A stretch of DNA of 64,000 bases from Neocallimastix lanati (nom. inval.). Lineage: Eukaryota > Neocallimastigomycota > Neocallimastigomycetes > Neocallimastigales > Neocallimastigaceae. Both the position numbers and the translations under genes were made by a program. The stretch covers positions 167,501 to 231,500 of the forward strand of contig JACVTC010000182.1 of assembly GCA_016946835.1 (NCBI GenBank). The letters are read 5' to 3'. This document shows, piece after piece, positions 11,242 to 39,654 of the stretch (the first letter of the stretch is position 1; each line of letters opens with the position of its first letter). A model generated the notes under the pieces. The model searched no databases and had not been told where the DNA came from. It saw only the letters and a list, made by a program, of their open reading frames with translations.

Positions 11242-11493
11242 TCAGTGAGTTCTTTCATTTTTATCTTTTCTCATAATTATTTTGTTATGAAATCTATATA
11301 TTATTTCATCTTTTTCTTCGCTATTATCATCAATTTTCATATTCTCAACTATATCTTTTATGATTAATTTTAGTCCAGCTCTGTTAATATCAATTTTTGA
11401 AACTGAATCTTCTTCAGAACGCTTTGGAGTTGGGTGAGCACCAACAAAGAGAACTAAGCATACAGCAAATACAATAATAGTACAAATTTTCAT
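11242..11493 (-). CDS. Small secreted protein, repeat-less subfamily, copy 1
   Basis: Codes for 83 residues. Residues 1-19 form a signal peptide (MKICTIIVFAVCLVLFVGA) with likely cleavage before HPTPKRSEED. A Lys-Arg pair (residues 24-25) follows, then an acidic helical segment (EDSVSKIDIN ... IIKDIVENMKIDDNSEEKDE) and a basic tail (IIMRKDKNERTH). It aligns with the array proteins through the signal peptide, the HPTP start and the VSK...PEN/VEN...EEKDE core, but lacks the 8-residue C-terminal repeats. It is the leftmost copy of the array. Closest relative is the copy at 13803-14084, whose tail extends further; a small indel near the 3' end accounts for the difference. Upstream bases differ from the promoter block shared by the repeat-bearing copies. 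Function not known. Confidence 0.75.
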   Translation of the reverse strand: MKICTIIVFAVCLVLFVGAHPTPKRSEEDSVSKIDINRAGLKLIIKDIVENMKIDDNSEEKDEIIYRFHNKIIMRKDKNERTH

Positions 11494-12384
11494 TTTGAAA
11501 AATAATATAATAAATTTTTATAGTTGCTAGATCTTTGTTTATTAAAAAAAAAAAATTAAATATATATTTTTAATGATATTAAAAATTTAAAACATTCACA
11601 TTCTTTTTTTTTTTTTTTTATTTTTTTTATTTTTTTTTTTCTTTTGAATAAAAATTTGGATTACCAAAAAAAATCATAATTATAATATAATAAAATTATT
11701 ATTAATGTAGTTATAATTATTATTATTTGAATTAAGTTTTTTCATTAATTAATTATTCCCTTAAAATTATCCAGTAATTCAATATTTATTGAATTATTGA
11801 TAATCTTAAATTAAAAAGATAATAATTATAATTAATTATATATTAAAGTTACATATGATACATTAAATGTTTCATATGAACTTTAAATATTAATTAATAA
11901 TAATAACCGAAAAAAAAAATTTTTTTTTTATAGTATTTAAAATTTAATTAACAATTATTACTTAATAGTTTTAATAGTAATTAAAAATTTTGATTCTAAA
12001 GACAAAAATAAACTTCACAGCATTTATACATGATTTAACCCAATTAAAAAAACCATCACAAAAGAAATAATTATATAAAACTATTTTTTTTTTTTAAAAA
12101 AAAAAAAAAAAAAAAAAAAACAATAATATAAATTTAAGAAGACGTAATTAATAAATATTTTTTAGTTATAAATTTATATGATGATAATATAAACATTTTA
12201 TATAAAAAAATATATTAATATTTATTTTTTATAAAAAATTTATTTTTTTTATTAAAATAATTAAATTTATATTTTATTTCTTTGTTTTTTATAATTTTGT
12301 AATTAAATATGATTTTATTAATCTTCTTTTTTATTTTTATCTTATTATCACTGTTTCTTTAGGTACTACTAGATTATTTAAAAT
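11494..12384. other. Array spacer
   Basis: AT-rich, no gene. Shares short blocks with the other spacers, such as GTTGCTAGATCTTTG upstream of the start (also upstream of the 14084 copy), and has a poly(A) run at about 12097-12120. Confidence 0.55.
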
Positions 12385-12648
12385 GAGGCTAAATTTTTAT
12401 TTTTGGATACTCTTTTTGGTCCTTTTTTTACCAACTTTTTTGCTTTTTTCCCTTAATTACTTTTATAAATTCTCTACGAATTAATACATCTTTTTCTTCA
12501 TTACTATTATCTATTTCTATGTTTTTAGGCAAACTTTTTATAATTAGTTTTAGTTCATCATTGTTAATTCCAACTTTTGAAACAGTATCTTCATTCGAAG
12601 GTTCTGGAGTCGGGCGAGTAATAACAAAGGGAACTAATTTTCTTTATG
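12385..12648 (-). pseudogene. Broken array copy 2: signal peptide partly deleted
   Basis: Reading right to left, the core PTPEPSNEDTVSKVGINN, DELKLIIKSLPKNIEIDN and SNEEKDVLIRR is clearly that of the array family. The start is lost: ATG is changed (GTCATAAAGAAAATTAGT) and about 30 bp of the signal peptide are missing. Near the C-terminus the frame slips in a poly(A) run (KGKKQK, then VGKKGPKRVSKNKNLASF in another frame). Dead copy; it nevertheless keeps the conserved end and 3' flank. Confidence 0.8.
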
Positions 12649-13802
12649 ACAAATAATTTATTTAATAGAATGTTTATGTTTTTTTTTTTTTATTTAAAAC
12701 CTTTTTTTTTTTTTTTAAATTTTATGAAATAATGAAATAATACCATATAAATAATTTTATTAAATTATTTATTATTAATATTAAATATTATTTATTTTTT
12801 AATGAAATTTTATTATGTTATTATTAATATACTTGATTTTTAATGAAATAAATCTTAAATTATATTTTATTTTTAATAAATTACTAAAATTCAAAAAAGA
12901 TATATATAATTATTTTTTTATTTAAAATATAATAATTATAATTAATTATAATTTAAAGCTCATAAATAAAAATAATAATAATAAAATCCAAATTTTAGTC
13001 ATATATAATAATTATAAAATAATAATAATAATAATAATAATAATAATAATAATAATAATAATTGCAAGTAATAAAAATTAACAAATATAATATTTGAATT
13101 TATATTGTTAATTATAAATATATGTATATATATGAAAAATGATAAATTTTTTTTGGACAATTTTATATTCAATATTAATAATTTATTATTATGGATAACT
13201 TTTATGTAAAGTGTGATAAAATTAAATTTTAAATATTTTCCAGTCATTATGATTTAATGGTATTTAATTAAATTTTATTATTAATTATTATTTATTTATT
13301 TATTTTTTTTATATTTCAATTTCAATTTTTAAATCTAATAAAAGGTATGATAAATATTTTTTATTATTAAATTAAGTAAAGATATAAAATTATTTTAATA
13401 TAGCATAAATTTTATATTTATAATTTTTTTTTTTTTATTTATTTTTATTATATTTTCTATTTTTATTAATTCTTTATTATTTTATATTATATTTTTTTTA
13501 TATTTTTAATATAAATAATTTAATATTTTATTTTTATGTTTTTATATAATACTTACTATAATTTATTTTTCAATTCTATATAATTTTTTACTTTTTTTAA
13601 ATAAAAGAAATGAAGAAAAATAGATATTTAGGTATTAAATATTTTTATATATATTATATCCTATATATATATTTTTTTAAAAAGAAAAAAAAATTTTTTT
13701 TTCATTAAATATTTTATATTATTATGATTTTATTACTTTTCTCTTATTATTATCTTCTTTTCATTTCTTTTTTTTGGCACAATTAAATTTCTTAGAAAGC
13801 AA
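12649..13802. other. Array spacer with (TAA)n tract
   Basis: No gene. Contains a trinucleotide run at about 13017-13062, which creates a meaningless Leu-rich ORF on the minus strand. The left part holds the decayed upstream region of the broken copy and the right part the conserved 3' flank of the next copy. Confidence 0.55.
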
Positions 13803-37451: not shown

Positions 37452-37781
37452 TTAGAAAGAGGCTAAATTTTTATTTTTGGATACTCTATGTGGTCCTTTT
37501 TTACGTACATCTTTTCCTACTTTTTTGCGTACATCTTTTCCTACTTTTTTACGTACATCTTTACTAGCTTTTTTTAATGCTCTACGCATTAATATATCCT
37601 TTTCTTCATTATCAATATCTATTTTTGTATTTTCAGGTATATTTTTTATAATTGATTTTAGTTCATCATTGGTAATTCCAACTTTTGAAACGTCATCTTT
37701 ATTCAAAGGTTCTGGGGTTGGATGAGCACTAACAAAGAGAGTTAAAGAAACAGCAAAGGCAATAAAAGTTCTGATTTTCAT
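37452..37781 (-). CDS. Secreted cationic-repeat protein, second subfamily, array copy 15
   Basis: 109 residues; signal peptide MKIRTFIAFAVSLTLFVSA (Arg at residue 4 is unique), VGITND acidic part, then ASKDVRKK, VGKDVRKK, VGKDVRKK and GPHRVSKNKNLASF. Close to copies 12 and 16. Upstream block present at about 37808-37820. Confidence 0.85.
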   Translation of the reverse strand: MKIRTFIAFAVSLTLFVSAHPTPEPLNKDDVSKVGITNDELKSIIKNIPENTKIDIDNEEKDILMRRALKKASKDVRKKVGKDVRKKVGKDVRKKGPHRVSKNKNLASF

Positions 37782-39300
37782 TTTAATAAATAATTTATTT
37801 AATAAAACGTTTATATATTTTTTAGATTTTTGTTTTTTAAAAAATTAAAATAATATAAAATTAATGATAATTTAATTTTAAACATTTTTTCTCTTTTTAT
37901 ATTTTTTTTAAAAACTTTTTCAATAGTTTATCTAAAAAAATTATAAATCATATTAATAATTATTAATTATTGTTAATTATTAATTATTGTTTATTATTAA
38001 TTTTTTTAAATTATAAAATATTTAATGATATTTTTATTATTATTATTATTATTATTATTATTATTTATATTTTTATTTTTATTACTATTATTATTAATTA
38101 TAATTTTTATTATTATTTAATTTTAATTATTATTATTATTATTATTATTTTAATAATTTTTATAAAATAAATTTTATAATAAATTATTAATTCCTTAAAA
38201 TTATCAATTAATTATATTTTTATGGAATTAATGATAAGGTTTAATTTAATATTAAAAAGAAATATAATTAATTATATAATAAAATTAATAAACTTAGACA
38301 TCATATATTTATAATCAAATATTAATTATCCAAAAAAAAAAAAAAAAAAAAAAAAAAAAAAAAAAAAAAAAAAAAATATTACTATAATTTATAATTTAGT
38401 TAACAATTATTATTGGTAATTCTAGTTCACAAATATTGATTTCAGAGACAAATATTTACTTCATATCATTTATATATATTTATCTATATATGCAATATTA
38501 AAAATTATCCTTAAAAAATTTTAAAATAAATTATTACTATATAAATATAATTATAAATTTAAAGAATGATAAAATACATAAATAAACTTTATTTTATTTA
38601 TTATATTTTTTTTGTTCTAAATAATAATTATTAAATTAATTCATTTTTTTTTTCAAAATAATAATTATTAAATTAAATTCTTTTTTTTTTTCAAAATATA
38701 AATCATATTTTTAATTTAATAATAATTATAATATATTTATTTATATTTATTTATATTTATTCTGTCCCAAAAAGAAGTTTTCACTTTTTCGAATTTATTT
38801 ATATCTTTTTAAAGGTAAATTTTTAATAAGAAATTTTAAATGTTTAATAAATATTTTATTATTACATTGGTTATATAATAACCTTGTTTATTTATATTAA
38901 GGGGGTTATATAGTTATATATATTATGGAAATTAAATACAGATATTATTATTATTTAGAAAAACTTCATTATTATTATATTATATTTAAATTTTTATACT
39001 TCATTTCTATAAAGAAAACAAAAATACTTTAATATTAAATTATTTTATACGATAATTTTTACTTTATTTTTTATTTTTTTTTTCAATTATTAATTACATA
39101 ATTATATTTTTATTTGTATTTTTTATATAATATTTATTACATTATATATTGTAATTCTATTTAATTAGTTATTTTTATATATTAAATAAGAAAAATAAAA
39201 ATTTATAGTTCATTTAATATTTTATAATTAATAATGAGTTTATTATTTTTCTTCATTATTTATATCTTATTTTCATTCTTTTTAGGCACTACCGGATTAT
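37782..39300. repeat. Array spacer
   Basis: Standard order; ATT tract short (about 38037-38063), A-run of over 40 at about 38333-38376, and a local tandem copy of an AATAATTATTAAATTAA block at about 38620-38680. No gene. Confidence 0.75.
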
Positions 39301-39654
39301 TTAGAAAGAGGCTAAATTTTTATTTTTGGATACTCTATGTGGTCCTTTTTTACGTACATCTTTTCCTACTTTTTTACGTACATCTTTACCTACTTTTTTA
39401 CGTACATCTTTACCTACTTTTTTACGTACATCTTTACTAGCTTTTTTTAATGCTCTACGCATTAATATATCCTTTTCTTCATTATCAATATCTATTTTTG
39501 TATTTTCAGGCATATTTTTTATAATTGATTTTAGTTCATCATTGGTAATTCCAACTTTTGAAACGTCATCTTTATTCAAAGGTTCTGGGGTTGGATGAGC
39601 ACTAACAAAGAGAGTTAAAGAAGCAGCAAAGGCAATAAAAGTACTAATTTTCAT
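39301..39654 (-). CDS. Secreted cationic-repeat protein, second subfamily, outermost array copy 16
   Basis: 117 residues, the longest member: signal peptide MKISTFIAFAASLTLFVSA, VGITND acidic part with KNMPENTKID, then four units (ASKDVRKK and three VGKDVRKK) and GPHRVSKNKNLASF. It equals copy 15 plus one extra 24-bp unit. The homology to other copies stops within a few bases upstream of the ATG: the sequence after cattttg is unrelated and the conserved TATA-containing block is missing. This is the right edge of the array, and the gene, if expressed, must use another promoter. Confidence 0.85.
   Translation of the reverse strand: MKISTFIAFAASLTLFVSAHPTPEPLNKDDVSKVGITNDELKSIIKNMPENTKIDIDNEEKDILMRRALKKASKDVRKKVGKDVRKKVGKDVRKKVGKDVRKKGPHRVSKNKNLASF

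Follow-up and report, generated by a model that had tools for sequence, protein, structure and literature searches.

The window analysed here is a stretch of 64,000 nucleotides from the sheep gut fungus Neocallimastix lanati (GenBank JACVTC010000182.1, our contig C93, bases 167501-231500), and it carries a tandem array of small genes for putative secreted proteins with lysine-rich eight-residue repeats, here called octads. Genome searches were made in an assembly of 199.0 Mb in 762 contigs; the published genome comprises 200.97 Mbp in 970 contigs (PMC8561657) and, given its different contig number, may be another version. Our comparisons with the literature rest on excerpts of PMC7329392, PMC6339444, PMC8106346, PMC8528282, PMC9769878, PMC8561657, PMC8869596, PMC3029338 and PMC3173955, and statements drawn from these sources hold for the excerpts. 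Searched by tblastn with four queries, the array resolves into 16 minus-strand loci of one family in the interval 11.2-39.7 kb of the window: 11 full open frames, one shortened open frame (11242-11493) and four broken copies. The match between two different array copies (E 1.5e-73) is beyond chance. This bears out an earlier note on this DNA, made from the sequence alone, which had counted 16 same-strand copies, 12 of them open; that note proved right in nearly every count, and its interpretation is partly supported.

Three or four octads, 37 in total, are found in each of ten of the 11 full open copies, which fall into two types. The main type has seven open copies, six of 113 aa with four octads each (numbered from the side of a neighbouring subtilase gene, copies 3, 4, 6, 7, 10 and 12, at 35575-35916, 33782-34123, 30300-30641, 28618-28959, 19602-19943 and 16590-16931; the proteins of copies 10 and 12 are identical) and one of 105 aa with three (copy 8, 26824-27141). 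The second type has three: copy 1, nearest the subtilase gene, with 117 aa and four octads (39301-39654; its protein matches its own genome at E 9.3e-69), and copies 2 and 5 with 109 aa and three octads each (37452-37781 and 32083-32412). The two remaining open copies, to which the earlier description as an array of genes with 8-residue repeats does not extend, are octad-less: a 93-aa copy with KR just after the signal peptide and again near the C end (copy 14, 13803-14084), and a shortened relative of it that stops early, after 83 aa (copy 16, the shortened open frame). From the subtilase side, the order is second, second, main, main, second, main, main and main type, followed by pieces of a Ty3-like retroelement on the minus strand (22521-25254, recognised by eye from translations and by a higher GC content); past these come broken, main, broken, main, broken, 93-aa type, broken and shortened 93-aa type, so that all four broken copies lie in the distal half.

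Two of the broken copies, copy 9 (21295-21615) and copy 11 (18283-18605), have in common a 1-nt frameshift after the signal peptide; copy 9 shifts again near its end and retains an irregular basic C-part with a KR. Each lies in a stretch some 4 kb long; the two stretches are shifted by 3.0 kb relative to each other and are 92% alike. Their signal-peptide parts differ despite the common frameshift, and one of these parts is similar to that of the main type, a hint that gene conversion has reached one of the broken copies. Copy 13 (15275-15589) contains two in-frame stops and copy 15 (12381-12637) a frameshift. A named N. lanati entry, H8356DRAFT_1436290, matches copy 13 with one stretch left out, the gene model probably splicing around a stop; that the array belongs to a gut fungus, as the earlier note had supposed, is supported by this entry.

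What do the octad-bearing proteins look like? Signal peptides have a hydrophobic core with small residues ahead of the cut, and residues 1-19 resemble one in all ten octad-bearing copies, the hydrophobic N-terminus ending in VSA/H (slash, putative cut). The assignment was made from this hydrophobic stretch, its VSA/H end and a helix at residues 3-19 in a single AlphaFold model of a main-type copy; the signal peptide of the earlier note thus stands as a putative one in all ten, with secretion probable. A pro-part of 48 or 52 residues follows, and the net charge up to the first repeat is -1 in 10/10 copies; the acidic segment that had been described is there, but its acidity is weak, the running charge falling to -4 and -5 in the two copies computed. 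In the octads, K3, K7 and K8 are invariant in 37/37 and positions 1, 2, 4, 5 and 6 vary, with position 4 being D in 28/37 and N in 9/37, and position 6 R in 22/37 and H in 15/37. KK closes every octad, giving a period of eight with 5-6 residues between the dibasic sites; of the KK/RKK junctions noted earlier, KK is universal, but RKK ends just 22 octads and HKK the other 15. The octads are followed by a 14-residue tail, GPHRVSKNKNLASF, in the ten copies. Octads and tail together carry +11 to +15 over 38-46 residues in all ten, so that the proteins are as cationic as had been said. They were also said to have no Cys, which is true past residue 19; the main type has one within the signal peptide. 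In the AlphaFold model, built on a 12-row alignment with a mean predicted local confidence (pLDDT) of 56.6, the octad region is near 50 and has no predicted structure.

Several features bear on whether these frames exceed chance and are under selection. GC content by codon position is 0.43/0.32/0.13, compared with 0.09 in the spacers. Frame length alone is weaker evidence than sequence match or codon GC: in 200 spacer shuffles the longest ATG frame averaged 49 codons and reached 94, so that the 93-aa copy is not long on its own. Among the ten octad-bearing copies, 3/3 gap events within the coding sequence are multiples of three, compared with 8/22 and 4/24 in the two flanks (12/46 together), and aligned sites have a mean identity of 0.938 in the coding sequence, compared with 0.873 and 0.888 in the flanks. 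A rough mutation model with weights of our own expects about 81% nonsynonymous changes among the six near-identical 113-aa copies; the observed seven nonsynonymous and seven synonymous changes depart from this (p 0.009). In the ten copies, signal peptide, octads and tail together show 20 nonsynonymous and 11 synonymous changes (p 0.025), the pro-part 21 and 4 (p 0.73). Between the main and second types, the ratio of nonsynonymous to synonymous change is 0.35 in the octads, 0 in the tail and 0.47 in the signal peptide, compared with 1.39 in the pro-part (a value not tested for exceeding 1). The basic part is thus the better conserved part, be it through selection or through local homogenisation. 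The 93-aa type shows no sign of constraint against the octad-bearing types, with whole-gene ratios of 0.92-1.06.

The family is new to the libraries searched. Pfam gave no match above cut-off among four members scanned, three of them octad-bearing, and NCBIfam none among four members, two of them octad-bearing, plus a gene on contig C566 described below; a clear homology to a known non-secreted family, which the earlier note had named as a ground for abandoning its reading, was thus looked for in both libraries and is absent above cut-off. Pfam matches of the octad members (Herpes_BLRF2, IL3 and others) are below the curated cut-offs, NCBIfam matches are far below theirs, and the single PDB match, to IpgB2 (E 0.0024), covers a stretch that includes the lysine-rich part; all of these look composition-driven and were set aside. 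A profile search of 5.8 billion proteins, in which the best 8000 candidates were scored so that distant relatives may be missed, returned seven clusters, all of them members of the array family. Four of these comprise several contigs, in one the longest contig measures no more than 3,563 bp, and a JGI protein differs from the 93-aa copy by one residue; together these points suggest that the family occurs beyond this assembly. The earlier statement that no described family has a VGKDVRKK-type repeat is upheld by the Pfam, NCBIfam, PDB and protein searches, with distant relatives remaining conceivable. Pattern searches yielded 377 stretches in viral contigs and 172 in prokaryotic contigs, none of which was confirmed by tblastn. 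Among the matches listed, no title on the array family was found in literature on gut-fungus antimicrobial peptides, on N. lanati or on small secreted proteins, nor for Kex2 with Piromyces or for lysine-rich or cationic repeats.

Within the whole genome, the 117-aa member finds nothing outside the array at E < 0.01. Its next match, on contig C61 (E 0.0104), was rejected by eye, combining a membrane-like stretch and a KVGK stretch in a different layout, as was the sole match of the 93-aa member outside the array, on C739 (E 0.008), a lysine-rich frame without a signal-like start. A single-copy gene on the plus strand of contig C566 (838200-838637; locus L025, 1001-1438) resembles the array genes in layout: its basic protein of 146 aa has a signal-like start, a spacer, a basic part with KDPHRI and a second basic end, KKYRLKASKKYRLRNSKK. 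It is 99% identical to a JGI protein, and its next four matches in the genome are array members (best E 0.008). Its profile score is 24.2 bits, and the top score among 4,000 shuffles, of which half keep the signal peptide, is 22.0; it ranks first of 4,001, narrowly, and we regard it as a candidate distant paralog whose homology is not proven.

What can be discerned from this about function? Our best reading, held tentatively and at somewhat less than even weight, is an intact, disordered, secreted polycation that binds polyanions, plausibly those of bacterial envelopes; it is preferred because the octad lysines are unchanging, disorder is predicted and preferred cleavage sites are missing. The signal peptide would direct the protein out of the cell, the weakly acidic pro-part might serve as a linker or mask, and the active part would be the three or four octads with the basic tail. 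Read in the register VRKKVGKD, each octad may present a run of three basic residues with a fourth three positions further along, and octads arranged head to tail would form a multivalent ligand for polyanions. Outside a rumen fungus, the likeliest target would be the anionic envelope of competing bacteria, which might be agglutinated, or killed through charge with no need of a classical amphipathic helix. Alternative polyanion targets would be plant pectin, mucin and the wall of the fungus. An antibacterial weapon acting through polyanion binding is possible. To our knowledge, no lysine-specific multivalent polycation has been described as a class of fungal defence proteins.

The register VRKKVGKD has the basic spacing of the Cardin-Weintraub heparin motif XBBBXXBX. 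Five of the ten octad-bearing copies were examined with a pattern allowing any non-basic residue at X; with His counted as basic, each has two to three matches, and the alternative motif XBBXBX has none in any of the five. Shuffle fractions computed for XBBBXXBX overstate the case since the sequence is periodic, and were discarded in favour of a cyclic count given below. For a synthetic octad, ARKKAAKA, heparin binding is reported to be best with four repeats, and a silk fusion that contains four of them is reported to have acted on E. coli (PMC8869596); multiples of the motif have been termed antibacterial (PMC3029338, PMC3173955). The designed (ARKKAAKA)n, reported as both heparin-binding and antibacterial, resembles the array in its eight-residue tandem unit, its basic spacing and its number of about four copies, but is synthetic, has alanine for V/G and lacks an acidic residue, whereas the octads have Asp at the last X in 28/37. 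The match to ARKKAAKA lies in spacing, not letter by letter. That the array encodes a natural, heparin-motif-like octad concatemer, raised by 24-bp slippage and gene amplification, which would disable or agglutinate rumen bacteria via the polyanions of their envelopes, is a specific proposal that we consider unlikely, if worth stating.

Several observations weigh against an intact polyanion binder. With K and R alone counted as basic, XBBBXXBX occurs 0, 1, 1, 1 and 3 times in the five copies and stands out by shuffling just in the copy with three; about 8/70 of the cyclic orders of four basic and four other residues, roughly one in nine, give this spacing by chance. The motif as defined asks for a hydrophobic or uncharged residue at X, and the last X is Asn in 9/37 octads and, against this definition, Asp in 28/37. 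The hydrophobic fraction of the repeat run is 0.25. With 41 nonsynonymous and 15 synonymous changes, the ten octad-bearing copies taken together do not depart significantly from the neutral model (p 0.10), and neither do the octads alone (13 to 5, p 0.25). Choosing the ten copies for their open frames biases the indel test toward frame-keeping, and young repeats related by slippage, perhaps with conversion, can mimic constraint; the invariant octad lysines are all AAA in an AT-rich genome. For selection on the reading frame, whose absence the earlier note would have taken as a refutation, the frame-keeping indels and the p of 0.009 in six copies speak, but the p of 0.10 over ten copies does not.

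The earlier note had thought of cationic antimicrobial peptide precursors, and the charge and the layout agree with this; it is the classical membrane-active helix that is weakened. Over four units, the helical moment is 0.18 in one copy and 0.08 in an ideal repeat, compared with 0.45 for magainin 2 so that with its low hydrophobicity the run would form no lasting amphipathic helix. Windows of 11 residues do reach moments of 0.69-0.73, compared with 0.69 for magainin, and the run has a moment of 0.30-0.45 at strand angles of 160-180 degrees, which makes an amphipathic strand possible. Cationic antimicrobial peptide precursors with an acidic pro-part are known from frog skin and among the cathelicidin types; like the array proteins, they have a signal peptide, a weakly acidic pro-part and a basic C-part. 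The array differs in the low hydrophobicity and helical moment of its repeat run, and between its types it is the pro-part, not the basic part, that differs most. Candidate antibacterial small proteins of gut fungi have also been described as bacteriocin-like genes (Swift 2021); by their descriptions these are set apart from the array, resembling putative bacteriocins or lactococcin 972 with bacterial or protist relatives, whereas the profile search of proteins and the pattern search of prokaryotic contigs confirmed no bacterial relative of the array family.

The main rival to an intact polycation is a peptide precursor of the kind known as Kex2-processed repeat proteins (KEPs). Kexin would cut after each KK in the Golgi, a KEX1-type carboxypeptidase would trim the lysines, and peptides of the VGKDVR and VGKDVH type would be secreted as signals or effectors. 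We judge this unlikely but a serious contender, as both the layout and the machinery are at hand: a putative signal peptide precedes three to four near-identical units each closed by KK, the genome contains at least five kexin P-domain loci with S8 matches at the same five places, and S10 carboxypeptidase matches lie on three contigs. KEPs have been reported from Neocallimastix and Piromyces (Umemura 2020, PMC7329392) and, in another survey, from Orpinomyces. The definition of Umemura 2020 accepts KR, KK, RK or RR as sites (PMC7329392) and asks for at least three tandem repeats, which 10/11 full open copies have; KEP surveys accept KK as a possible site, one of them ranking it lesser, and a Coprinopsis KEP expressed in Pichia yields many products with lysine as their last residue. 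Cores of 5-6 residues would fit the peptide size class of 3-8 aa of one survey, but the Umemura survey sets 8 aa as the minimum length of a repeat between sites (PMC7329392).

The sites themselves argue against such processing. A review calls Arg at P1 invariant for kexin, and by this strict standard KR or RR occurs inside the repeats of 0/10 octad-bearing copies: 7/7 main-type copies have neither after residue 19, and 3/3 second-type copies have a single RR within the pro-part, ahead of the repeats. The octad-bearing copies have no KR, but it is found in both octad-less open copies, in three of the broken ones and in the C566 gene; the pieces read of the fourth broken copy, at 15275-15589, contain none. 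Three of the five kexin loci have a readable pro-region, and in each of them a KR lies a short way ahead of the catalytic part's conserved start and would be the processing site, although one of the loci (L034) holds several dibasic pairs. The Kex2 processing proposed earlier is thus favoured by the KK that closes 37/37 octads and weakened by amplified copies without KR and with at most one RR. As the genome has the enzymes for processing but their preferred sites are missing from the octad-bearing proteins, we rank an intact product above processing. The precursor layout is already known from KEPs (Le Marquer 2019, Umemura 2020), which likewise have a putative signal peptide, a pro-part and at least three near-identical repeats with dibasic KK between them; the octad repeat, with its strongly cationic cores of 5-6 residues between sites, and the missing Arg sites set the array family apart. 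For the KEP type S-6 of Neocallimastix and Piromyces, a Chitin_bind_1 profile is listed; compared by this profile, the four array members scanned have no match. UstYa/DUF3328 (PF11807), the oxidase of dikaritin-type ribosomally synthesised and post-translationally modified peptides, has no match in the genome, nor in any control genome. The kexin-like loci (L034-L038), at least five in one gut fungus, are of interest in themselves, some having a membrane-anchor-like stretch and long acidic linkers.

Less probable still, the polycation may be an adhesive or matrix protein without antibacterial action, by which hyphae, rhizoids or zoospores would stick to anionic plant pectin, to the mucin of the host or to the wall of the fungus itself. 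The same multivalent basic repeats and the same heparin-motif parallel would serve such a function, and in exported Plasmodium proteins short tandem repeats rich in lysine serve as targeting sequences (PMC5207086, likewise an excerpt). The small size of 105-117 aa speaks against it, as does the absence of any dockerin, carbohydrate-binding or membrane domain above the Pfam cut-off in three octad-bearing members. We regard as quite improbable that tandem duplication in AT-rich DNA merely spread a gene of little present use through a now decaying array: the state of the distal half, which contains all four broken copies of the 16 and the shortened one, the retroelement inside the array, the lack of relatives outside the family among the candidates scored, the neutral fit of the ten-copy change counts and the ratios near 1 against the 93-aa type are in its favour, but the open copies have solely frame-preserving indels, the six recent copies show a synonymous excess, and the coding GC pattern is retained.

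The gene that adjoins the array, on the minus strand at 42584-44449, encodes a subtilase (S8; PF00082, E 2.1e-25) with a signal-like N-terminus and a Cys-rich C-terminal end. The idea that it might be a dedicated processing enzyme was dropped as unsupported because PF00082 gives 82 match rows across the genome, some being exons of one gene and several lying on the same contigs. Elsewhere, the window contains an open Ty3-type retroelement frame of 1331 aa with gag, protease, reverse transcriptase, RNase H and integrase domains (48579-52574), a MULE transposase-like frame with a FLYWCH zinc finger (8004-9230), a long tandem array, rich in AT, whose units measure about 10, 47 and 94 bp (4215-6977) and the frame of an ankyrin-repeat protein that runs off the window start (3-2420).

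Anaerobic fungi live amid dense bacterial communities, and we know of few of their proteins that act on bacteria. A small family whose repeats are easily synthesised would allow a direct test. The array is also a clean example of repeat variation: a protein repeat changes in steps of 24 bp, and relatives that are irregular or lack octads lie alongside.

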